A stretch of DNA of 64,000 nt from Planotetraspora mira. Lineage in GTDB: Bacteria > Actinomycetota > Actinomycetes > Streptosporangiales > Streptosporangiaceae. This document shows positions 7,476 through 61,951 of the stretch, piece by piece. Positions within the stretch are counted from its first letter, which is position 1. Each line of letters starts with the position of its first letter. The notes under the pieces are model-generated. The model was given only the letters and a program-made list of their open reading frames with translations, was not told where the DNA came from and searched no databases. The DNA lies in NCBI RefSeq assembly GCF_016863275.1, contig NZ_BOOO01000033.1:124001-188000 (forward strand), given 5' to 3'. Position numbers and translations under genes: made by a program.

Positions 7476-7569
7476 ATTCACAATCCCCCGGGCTGGCGAA
7501 ACCTTCGGCATATCTCTTTTGCCCGCCAAGAGCGTCCCCATGCCGATCATTCCGGGGCACTGGATGGGG

Positions 7570-7793
7570 GTGATCATGCACAGGTTCGTGGTCATGCCCG
7601 GCGACCAGCCCATTCCCTGATCGTGATCATGCGCAGATTCGTGAATCCCCCCACGACCAGCCACGCCTCGGTGCGTGATCATGCACAGATTCGTGGTCAT
7701 GCCCGCTGACCAGCCGACTCTTAGTTCGTGATCATGCGCACTTTCGGTCGCGTAACGTCTGACCAGTGCGTACTCCGTTCGTGATCATGCACG
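7570..7793. repeat. 53-bp tandem repeat cluster 1 (TGATCA nodes)
   Basis: Five copies of the core GTGATCATGCRCR have their TGATCA palindromes at 7571, 7624, 7676, 7729 and 7782, giving spacings of 53, 52, 53 and 53 bp. The sequence between cores is semi-conserved: TTCG shortly after the core and GACCAG near the middle of each unit. The cluster fills most of the 370-bp gap between the PKS start (7475) and the UbiA stop (7846). The rest of that gap shows no gene. Confidence 0.9.
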
Positions 7794-7845
7794 CGCCGCC
7801 GCCACACCGTCAGTCGCCGTCAGACCGCCTCGCCGTCGGCCGTCG

Positions 7846-8697
7846 TCAGGCACCGACTCCGGTCCCGGACGCGAGAAGGAGGCCGACGTCGACGGCCGCG
7901 CACGCGATGGCCGCCGCGAAGGGGATCTTCGGCGACAGGCCGCCGAGGGCCGTCCCCGCAAGGCCGAACGCGGTCACCGCGGCCAGCCCGGCCCAGGCGA
8001 CGGCGCCGGGCGGCCCCGGAGGCGCGAACACGAGCAGCGCGGACGCGGCGAGCAGGGGCACCGGAATCAACGCGCGGACGCGGGACGCCCCCAGACGTTG
8101 TGGCCATCCGCGGACGCCGACGGCCACGTCCTGCCCGATGTCCGGCAGGACGTTCGCGAGATGCGCTCCGAGGCCGAGGGCGGCCGCCGCGACGACCACC
8201 CACCAGGCCGGCCACGGCCGTCCGGGGAGCCCGGTCACCACGAACACGGGCAGGCTGCCGAACCCCACGACGTACGGCGTCCAGGAGAAGAGCGTCGACT
8301 TCAGCCGCAGGTTGTAGGCCCACGCCCCCGCGACCGCGATGAGGTGGACTGCGCCCGCCAGCAGGCCGCAGGCGAACGAGAGTGGCACGCAGACGACGAG
8401 CGCGGAGAATGCGGACACGTACACCGTTCTCACGCCGACCTGGCCGCCGACGATGGGTTTCTCCGCACGGCCGGCGGCGATGTCGCGGCCCGCGTCGACG
8501 GCGTCGTTGCACCAGCCCACCGAGAGTTGGCCGGTGAGGATTGCCGCCGCCACGAGGACACTGTCTGTGACGTCGCGCCCGGCAGCGACCGCGAGCGCGG
8601 TGACCAGCGCGGTGACGGCCACGGTCGGCCCGGGGTGGCAGGCCTTCGCGAGCCCGCCCAGTGCCCCCACCCAGGAGCCACGCCCTACCGCCACCAC
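7846..8697 (-). CDS. UbiA-family prenyltransferase
   Basis: 283 residues, highly hydrophobic, about eight to nine membrane helices. The first Asp-rich motif is NDAVDAGRDIAAGRAEKP, the AYNLRLK motif is present, and the second Asp-rich motif is DIGQDVAVGVRG. The enzyme should transfer a prenyl chain from a prenyl diphosphate to an aromatic or other acceptor in the membrane. GTG at 8697 is the listed start; a 7-bp inverted repeat (8696-8714) overlaps it. It stands alone between two inverted repeat clusters, in the same direction as the phenolic-lipid operon. Prenylation of that product is a reasonable guess but unproven. Confidence 0.88.
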   Translation of the reverse strand: MVAVGRGSWVGALGGLAKACHPGPTVAVTALVTALAVAAGRDVTDSVLVAAAILTGQLSVGWCNDAVDAGRDIAAGRAEKPIVGGQVGVRTVYVSAFSALVVCVPLSFACGLLAGAVHLIAVAGAWAYNLRLKSTLFSWTPYVVGFGSLPVFVVTGLPGRPWPAWWVVVAAAALGLGAHLANVLPDIGQDVAVGVRGWPQRLGASRVRALIPVPLLAASALLVFAPPGPPGAVAWAGLAAVTAFGLAGTALGGLSPKIPFAAAIACAAVDVGLLLASGTGVGA

Positions 8698-8750
8698 CAG
8701 AGCGTAACTCTGGTCCCGATCACCGCCAGGCCGGTCGGCACGGCGGAATC

Positions 8751-8920
8751 TGCATGATCACGCAGCGCGTTCACCCTGGTCGTACGGCACGGCGGCGAAC
8801 TTGCGCATGATCACGAACGGAATACGCGCTGGTCAGACCATACGTGACCGAAAGTGTGCATGATCACGGCGGGAGGGTCGGCTGGTCGGCGGACATGATC
8901 ACGAACCTGTGCATGATCAC
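8751..8920. repeat. 53-bp tandem repeat cluster 2 (opposite orientation)
   Basis: TGATCA cores at 8755, 8808, 8861 and 8914 are exactly 53 bp apart; one extra core lies at 8896. Orientation is inverted relative to cluster 1. The 66-bp stretch 8802-8867, reverse complemented, matches 7728-7793 at 58 of 66 positions. The remaining parts of the gap 8698-9079 hold no gene. Confidence 0.9.
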
Positions 8921-9034
8921 GGCCAAGGGGACGGACGGTGATATGGGGGCTTCGATCTGTGTGGTGATCGTGACTTCTCTGTGATCTCCCCGGGTTTAGG
9001 GTCGGCGGAGCGCACAAGGTGATCTATTCGATTA

Positions 9035-60527: not shown

Positions 60528-61169
60528 GTGGACGCTGTGCTGTTCGACATGGACGGACTGCTCGTCGACACCGAACGAGTGTGGTTCGAGGTCGAAGAGG
60601 AGGTCATCGGCCGCCTCGGCGGAACGTGGGGGCCGGAACACCAGGAGCAGCTGGTCGGAGGGTCCTGGGAGCGGACCGTCGCCTACATGCTGGCGCTGAC
60701 ACGGACCGACGTCGATCCGGCCATCGTGGGGGAGTGGCTGATCGAGGGCATGGAGAGCCGCCTGTCCACCGGCGTCGTCCTCATGCCGGGGGCACTCGAC
60801 CTCCTGCGCAGTCTCGGGGACCACGGGATCCGCGCGGGGCTGGTCACCTCCTCGCTGCGGGTGATCGCCGACGCCGTCCTGAAGAGCGTCGGCCGGGAGT
60901 ACTTCGAGGTGATCGTGACGGCGGACGACGTCGCGCGGACCAAGCCCGACCCCGAGCCCTACCTGACCGCCGCGACGCTGCTCGCGGTGGATCCGGCGCG
61001 CTGCGTCGTCCTGGAGGACTCGCCGAACGGCGTCGCCTCGGCGACCGCGGCCGGCTGCCGGGTCGTGGCGGTGCCGAGCGTGCTGCCGATCACGCCCGCG
61101 GCCGGGCGGCTCGTCATGCCCTCGCTCCTGGACGTGAACGTCGACCTGCTGCGGTCGCACGTTCTTTGA
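60528..61169 (+). CDS. HAD-superfamily phosphatase (beta-phosphoglucomutase-like)
   Basis: 213 residues. Motif I DMDGLLVDTE with the nucleophile Asp, motif II VTSSL, motif III Lys in RTKPDPEPYL and motif IV VLEDSPNGVASA. Class I cap. GGGGGAAGGGG is upstream of the GTG. Substrate is not specified by sequence; sugar phosphates are common for the group. Follows metH as in many actinomycetes. Confidence 0.92.
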   Translation: MDAVLFDMDGLLVDTERVWFEVEEEVIGRLGGTWGPEHQEQLVGGSWERTVAYMLALTRTDVDPAIVGEWLIEGMESRLSTGVVLMPGALDLLRSLGDHGIRAGLVTSSLRVIADAVLKSVGREYFEVIVTADDVARTKPDPEPYLTAATLLAVDPARCVVLEDSPNGVASATAAGCRVVAVPSVLPITPAAGRLVMPSLLDVNVDLLRSHVL

Positions 61170-61215
61170 TCGCGGGAGCCGTACGCGCTGGTTGAGGCGG
61201 TGTGCCGCCCGGGCC

Positions 61216-61396
61216 GTGCATGATCATGAACGGTGTTCGTGCTGGTCAAGTGGTGTGCGGCCGAAAGTGCGCATGATCACGGCTGGCGTTCGCGCTGGTG
61301 AGACGGCGTGTCGCCGAATGTGTGCATGATCACGGCGGGGGGTTAAGCGGGGCGGGTGGGGTGGGGTGGGGATTCCGCGAAGGTGTGCATGATCAC
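61216..61396. repeat. 53-bp tandem repeat cluster 3
   Basis: TGATCA cores at 61221, 61274, 61327 and 61390: spacings 53, 53 and 63 bp. Units carry the same GCTGGTSAGA and CCGAAAGTG blocks as cluster 2. The gap 61170-61471 contains no gene beyond these repeats. Confidence 0.88.
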
Positions 61397-61471
61397 CACC
61401 ACGCGGAGGGGCGGGTCGCGTGCCAGGATGGAGGGGTGCCGGATGTCCAGGCCGTGACTTAGGGGATCGCC

Positions 61472-61951
61472 ATGACCTTCGACCAGATCGCCTGGTTGCC
61501 GCTCAGCGCCGGGCTCACCGCGGTGGGGATCGCGCTCAGCTACCTCGCCTTCCGTCGCAGGGGGCTCCAGGCGGGCCTGCGGGCCACCGCCTGGTCGCTG
61601 CTTCCCCTGGCGGCCTACCTGACCGGGGCGCTCAGGACGGTGTGGAACATCGGCTCCGCCGTCGTCGGCTTCGTCACGGGCCTGGTCTTCTCGCCGATGG
61701 TCTGGGCGGGCGTCGTCGTCACCGGACTGTCGGTTCTGCTCTTCTTCGTCTCGGGCGGCCTGCGCGGCCGGGCCCTGTCCCGGGCCCGTGCCACGGGTCC
61801 CGCCGATCCGGAGGCGCCCACGAAGGCGGAGACGCCGCGGAAGCCGGGCAAGGCGGCCGACCCGCGACCCGTCGAACGGGCCGCCAAGCCCGCCCCCGCC
61901 GACGATTTCTCCGACATCGAGGACATCCTCAAGCGGCGTGGGATCAGCTGA
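61472..61951 (+). CDS. Small membrane protein with conserved C-terminal tail
   Basis: 159 residues. Three or four hydrophobic segments in the first 95, then a charged, Pro/Lys/Ala-rich cytoplasmic tail ending DDFSDIEDILKRRGIS. AGGGGA precedes the ATG. No known domain was recognised. It is not in an operon with its neighbours. Confidence 0.7.
   Translation: MTFDQIAWLPLSAGLTAVGIALSYLAFRRRGLQAGLRATAWSLLPLAAYLTGALRTVWNIGSAVVGFVTGLVFSPMVWAGVVVTGLSVLLFFVSGGLRGRALSRARATGPADPEAPTKAETPRKPGKAADPRPVERAAKPAPADDFSDIEDILKRRGIS

Follow-up and report, generated by a model that had tools for sequence, protein, structure and literature searches.

Dispersed repeats in bacteria are usually taken as mobile debris or as hairpins. 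In mycobacteria, MIRU/VNTR loci are tandem repeats scattered between genes; their units measure tens of bp, in some cases about 53 bp. DNA uptake sequences, namely DUS of Neisseria and USS of Haemophilus, are words of ~10-12 bp that are found in very many copies, with inverted pairs near gene ends. The dispersed short sites of the MatP/matS, SlmA and ParB/parS systems each serve one DNA-binding protein and stand singly or in loose clusters. REP, BIME and REPIN sequences, together with the RAYT (TnpA-REP) transposase, are described in outline as many short, intergenic and lineage-specific repeats (PMC3116915, PMC3733652). The repeat analysed here is carried by Planotetraspora mira, whose genus is introduced as having five described species (PMC11431748). 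The window, by which we mean the whole analysed stretch of 64,000 nucleotides, contains three arrays of it. The arrays and the genes beside array 3 are as follows.

7569..7799, minus strand: array 1, five A boxes at 7569, 7622, 7674, 7727 and 7780; left arm of a pair
8743..8921, plus strand: array 2, four A boxes at 8743, 8796, 8849 and 8902; right arm of the same pair
60528..61169, plus strand: HAD-family hydrolase, upstream neighbour of array 3
61167..61192, plus strand: degenerate innermost unit of array 3, TGATCgCGG...GCGCTGGT, overlapping the HAD stop codon; 81% match to 61274-61299
61209..61397, plus strand: array 3, four 20-bp A boxes at 61209, 61262, 61315 and 61378
61241..61248, plus strand: box B of unit 1 of array 3, GCTGGTCA, 23 bp after the core start, which is the standard offset
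61294, plus strand: box B of unit 2 of array 3; that of unit 3 is degenerate, near 61347
61472..61951, plus strand: 159-aa protein with hydrophobic stretches and without a Pfam match, downstream neighbour of array 3

In aligned units, box A (CGAAyCTGTGCATGATCACG) and a weaker box B (GCaGGTCr) stand out, and the rest is near background. Box B begins 23 bp after the start of the core and resembles an A box one base shorter; the similar words of the two boxes are offset by 21 bp. The core of array 3, GCATGATCA, starts at 61218, 61271, 61324 and 61387, with spacings of 53, 53 and 63 bp, and the four copies in register (61191-61227, 61244-61280, 61297-61333 and 61360-61396) have the same start-to-start distances. 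A period of 53 was called by TRF at both 61218-61334 and 7570-7737. The sequence-only reading of this DNA, which had described a four-copy cluster with these spacings and other arrays 52 kb away, was accurate on both points: arrays 1 and 2 form outward arms on either side of a single intact UbiA gene, 52 kb from array 3. The outward arrangement around UbiA (7569-8921) is also kept in P. silvatica. As in MIRU/VNTR, the repeats are dispersed, intergenic and tandem, with units of tens of bp, and their copy number varies, here between species. Unlike MIRU/VNTR, the units are only 70-76% alike and not near-identical, nothing but the period and the two boxes is conserved, and the pairs of arms point outward. 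A CRISPR array was also considered and rejected: box B recurs within the intervals at one fixed offset, the boxes vary and the arms are paired outward.

The 159-aa protein encoded downstream of array 3 is probably membrane-bound. Its gene is conserved in Streptosporangiaceae, with orthologues from 97% (P. silvatica) down to 73% (P. thailandica) identical, and these orthologues mark the array 3 locus in other species. Upstream of this gene, GTGCCAGGATGGA at 61418-61440 is kept across the orthologous upstream regions of Streptosporangiaceae, array present or absent, and is probably the -10 region of the gene's promoter. On the other side of the locus, in P. thailandica, the first core (GCATGATCA) includes the TGA stop of the HAD gene, and similar overlaps with stop codons recur genome-wide.

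A dispersed family had been thought likely from the window, and hundreds of copies were indeed found in the P. mira genome. With up to one mismatch allowed, the window has 43 occurrences of GCATGATCA where 8.3 would be expected, a count reached by none of 100 shuffles. The 9.0-Mb genome contains 684 exact copies of TGCATGATCACG, while the reversed pattern is found 0 times, and it contains 661 direct pairs of GCATGATCA lying 51-55 bp apart. In 0.86 Mb of sampled sequence, 192 A boxes fall into 28 elements (~32 per Mb), and 126 of the 139 same-strand neighbours less than 130 bp apart are spaced by exactly 53 bp. Extrapolated to the genome, this amounts to about 290-300 intergenic elements and ~2000 boxes, the per-genome figures being either pattern counts or extrapolations from the 0.86 Mb. 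Exact TGCATGATCACG 12-mers number 242 to 940 in congeners, 0-6 in most other genera and 71 in one genome outside the genus, G028. An Rfam search gave no match, nine matches in viral contigs were all unrelated, and a search of the open-access literature, including 13 papers that mention the genus Planotetraspora, did not find such repeats. The dispersed short sites recall those of matS, SlmA and parS, with the protein putative here, but they differ from these in their extrapolated number of ~2000 and in their rigid arrays. No described repeat family was found to share all of the traits compared.

The commonest spacing of A boxes is by far 53 bp, and most arms have 3-5 units. Neighbouring box pairs in 1.26 Mb point in the same direction in 177 cases, outward in 19 and inward in 0; about half of the elements are bipolar, i.e., pairs of outward-pointing arms, and about half are single arms. 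All three arrays of the window are directed at gene starts, as promoter-linked sites might be. This reading was rejected: across the genome, the direction of the arms goes by the centre of the element itself, and gene 3' ends are the preferred location. Outer edges of elements lie at gene 3' ends in 62% of cases versus 42% expected, an enrichment that pools related species, so that its p-values are optimistic. The outermost box is a median of ~14 bp from the gene 3' end, and is often 0-30 bp from the stop codon or contains it.

Such positions would suit bidirectional transcription terminators, whether these work through RNA hairpins or through protein roadblocks that follow C-rich, Rho-friendly 3' ends. 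The ~20 bases immediately beyond the outermost box are C-rich and G-poor when read into the element, and the C-G skew of the 20 nt before the element is 0.41 against 0.09 at element-free convergent ends. Bipolar elements would fold into long hairpins (z -10 to -29), related elements of Microbispora lie mostly between convergent genes, and the dyads of other genera are true hairpins. However, gene-start sides display the C-rich skew as well (0.33), the window's own arrays are directed at gene starts, and single arms, which make up about half of the elements, lack RNA structure (z about 0 to -2, with two exceptions). Furthermore, the inner positions of Planotetraspora element centres pair at chance rate only, and single arms turn their outer edge to a gene 3' end as often as their inner edge. 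Function as an RNA hairpin was rejected on the grounds that single arms do not fold, and we consider terminators of either kind quite unlikely.

The 63-bp spacing in array 3 had been read as six helical turns of 10.5 bp, by which phasing would be kept despite a change in length. The orthologous interval in P. silvatica is 54 bp, contrary to this claim, so that the 63-bp interval owes its length to a 9-bp indel within a G-rich tract; it is peculiar to the P. mira lineage. At the same locus the spacings are 53, 53 and 54 in P. silvatica and four times 53 in P. thailandica, and P. phitsanulokensis has one of 51. Spacings other than 53 were searched in five genomes at 19-49 and 54-84 bp, with distances transcribed by hand. 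They are mostly 54, with a scatter over 19-48 that peaks at 35, whereas 62-63 and 42 are rare; relative to multiples of 10.5 bp, their mean phase is 81 degrees (Rayleigh p about 0.1). Peaks at such multiples are absent in the five species, an outcome that the sequence-only reading had itself named as speaking against its proposal, and 10.5-bp helical phasing was rejected. The data agree with one fixed length, 53 (+/-1), and not with any multiple of the turn. Of the proposed selection on rotational position, one part survives, in that the interval length is conserved between species, but what is kept is 53 bp itself and not whole turns. The offsets from box A to box B (21 bp) and from one box A to the next (53 bp), ~2 and 5 turns, are compatible with binding on the same face of DNA and are not a proof of it.

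Comparison between species separates the boxes from the DNA around them. Between P. mira and P. silvatica, whose genes are ~97.5% identical, mismatch in the core GCATGATCAC is 1.5%, whereas divergence reaches 15.5% between boxes; the figures for convergent intergenic DNA and for four-fold sites are 11.5% and 6.4%. The core rate might be biased if boxes were picked in a single species, but boxes defined in the other species gave 1.5% again. Against P. kaengkrachanensis, the core of P. mira differs by 3.0-9.5% versus 26% in convergent DNA. The length between boxes changed between species in 7/57, 9/64, 4/46 and 2/38 intervals, versus 33/104, 28/72, 49/75 and 49/67 control windows, respectively; as the boxes themselves served to anchor the alignments, the apparent indel rate is possibly somewhat lowered. 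Since the core is nearly unchanged and the interval length is kept, both the core word and the 53-bp length are under purifying selection. A conserved site at a conserved spacing, both selected, is what a cooperative protein-binding array would display. The label 'hypervariable spacers' was dropped, as a first comparison with all intergenic DNA overstated the contrast; the inter-box rate is ~1.3-1.5x that of convergent intergenic DNA. Transitions make up 67% of inter-box substitutions between P. mira and P. silvatica, compared with 55-59% in ordinary intergenic DNA and 40% at four-fold sites.

Whole units have been gained or lost between P. mira and P. silvatica, leaving a gap of exactly 53 bp, as would be seen if the arrays were functionless tandem repeats born of slippage. 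This explanation is scarcely credible, given that units of one array differ widely outside the boxes and that the core and the interval length are under selection. Single arrays are dispensable, because copy number varies much between species and the array at the array 3 locus is almost lost in P. kaengkrachanensis.

The words themselves differ by lineage: GAACCTGT is found in most species, GAACTTCT in P. thailandica and GCGACAAACT in Microbispora. In P. thailandica the box is CGAACTTCTGCATGATCACG, with a genome-wide shift of the flank from CCTGT to CTTCT that was also found at the two shared loci examined. Such a change would be expected under a shift in the specificity of the putative protein; homogenisation or spread of copies also fits. 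Alternatively, the cores would have been kept by molecular drive, i.e., biased uptake or gene conversion without local function. The brevity of the word, its hundreds of copies between genes, the variants specific to each genus and the concerted change in P. thailandica agree with this, and the very many copies and the inverted pairs by gene ends are reminiscent of DUS/USS. Uptake, however, needs neither a fixed 53-bp lattice nor a second box, DUS/USS are not known to form arms of 3-5 sites, and the inter-box DNA is not homogenised; we hold molecular drive to be very improbable.

Beyond Planotetraspora, the A+B+53 unit is found in G105 (Planotetraspora sp. A-T 1434 at NCBI; a separate, sister genus in GTDB), which has 535 direct pairs and the same B box, and in some Microbispora, with different flanking words. 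In four Microbispora genomes (G111, G115, G117 and G120) the elements are ~236 bp long, with boxes at 0, 53, 106, 121, 174 and 227 and an outer box TGCGACAAACTaCAAGATCACG. Their length is nearly fixed (235-238 bp), they mostly fill gaps between convergent genes, and they end in a 22-bp terminal inverted repeat, where Planotetraspora elements have outward boxes only. In other genera the core occurs in inverted pairs only, for which reason the core dyad is probably older than the arrays. G028 has 49 such pairs with a spacer nearly fixed at 29 bp; the triplet inside one half, of ATT or CGC type, tends not to match that inside the other, so that perfect palindromes are under-represented. Elsewhere, 1-2 core dyads per genome lie just behind conserved genes as true hairpins with paired inner positions. 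For example, a hairpin with a perfect stem and the ends GTGATCATGC/GCATGATCAC lies 5-30 bp behind a 98-aa gene in genus g82 and G077 (~14 genomes), and the same hairpin lies behind a murQ-like gene in 5 genomes.

These comparisons bear on whether the arrays are miniature mobile elements of MITE or REPIN type, whose arms would be transposon ends with subterminal transposase sites, spread by a transposase supplied in trans and now mostly immobile. Outward repeated sites at both ends resemble ends of the Tn7/Mu type, and the near-fixed length of Microbispora elements and their terminal inverted repeat, a MITE trait, point the same way, as does their patchy copy number: among 15 Microbispora genomes there are 27-125 terminal boxes in four, 1 in one and 0 in ten. 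As with REP/BIME/REPIN, hundreds of lineage-specific intergenic copies are found, often at gene 3' ends and in inverted arrangements, and the core dyads of related genera are REPIN-like. On the other hand, target-site duplication was not seen, and Microbispora elements are not near-identical copies but have only ~64% mean identity. The elements are stably shared between species, 11 of 12 orthologous intergenic regions of P. mira and P. kaengkrachanensis retaining the element, with no new insertion among 272 such regions in the latter; the pattern of recent copies and presence-absence differences between close relatives that marks REP/REPIN was not found. Also unlike REP/REPIN, these are 53-bp lattices of direct repeats in outward arms and not small palindromes, the inter-box DNA diverges freely, and neither single arms nor Planotetraspora centres form palindromic hairpins of 20-40 bp. 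The cores, moreover, are still selected long after insertion. The Y1 (HUH) transposase PF01797 is absent from P. mira, P. phitsanulokensis, P. kaengkrachanensis, P. silvatica and G028, and active REPIN/RAYT transposition in P. mira was rejected accordingly; PF01797 was found in P. thailandica (G001, as fragments) and G078. Among the congeners, Y1 matches are confined to P. thailandica, the richest in copies, and every one of them is partial or broken. Two purine-catabolism genes are flanked by outward arms 2.7 kb apart in three Microbispora genomes. An autonomous element inside this span was rejected, as it carries host metabolic genes only and no transposase. A mobile origin of this kind is, in our view, unlikely.

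In the reading we favour, to which we give about an even chance, the units of an array would be consecutive sites for a single sequence-specific DNA-binding protein that the host requires, and the role would be architectural, insulating or that of a boundary. Mobile elements and terminators keep appreciable weight as rivals, and the dispensability of single arrays counts against this reading, as does the finding that single arms have no consistent orientation relative to transcription. Site and spacing are conserved, DNA between them drifts freely and single arms have no RNA fold, which argues for a protein on double-stranded DNA. The regularity of units at 53 bp suggests contact between adjacent protein units, and a part in insulation, in chromosome architecture or in helping termination is suggested by the outward symmetry together with the position at gene ends. 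We infer the protein, its filaments and any effect on transcription or chromosome folding, and the process would run as follows. Box A would be the strong site for a putative host protein and box B, 21 bp (two turns) away, a weaker related half-site. The 53-bp repeat would place adjacent protein units on one face of the DNA, where they could touch, and contacts between them would build, on each arm, a nucleoprotein filament 3-5 units long. Where two arms head away from a centre, they would often form a symmetric complex in the gaps beside gene 3' ends. Such arrays would act architecturally, as an insulator or boundary between adjacent genes, and would possibly aid the stop of transcription.

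A wider version, which we hold to be rather doubtful, is that Streptosporangiaceae possess an undescribed system in which a dedicated protein on ~300 lattices of 53 bp, bipolar or single (~2000 sites), partitions the chromosome into gene neighbourhoods, with its specificity co-evolving by lineage. In place of mobile debris or hairpins, there is here a rigid 53-bp lattice and a 10-bp core that is strongly selected at hundreds of sites, with the DNA between them drifting. This points to a multi-site protein complex along the chromosome, whose binding protein may co-evolve with hundreds of sites between species. The existence of genome-wide boundary or filament sites in bacteria would thereby become directly testable.
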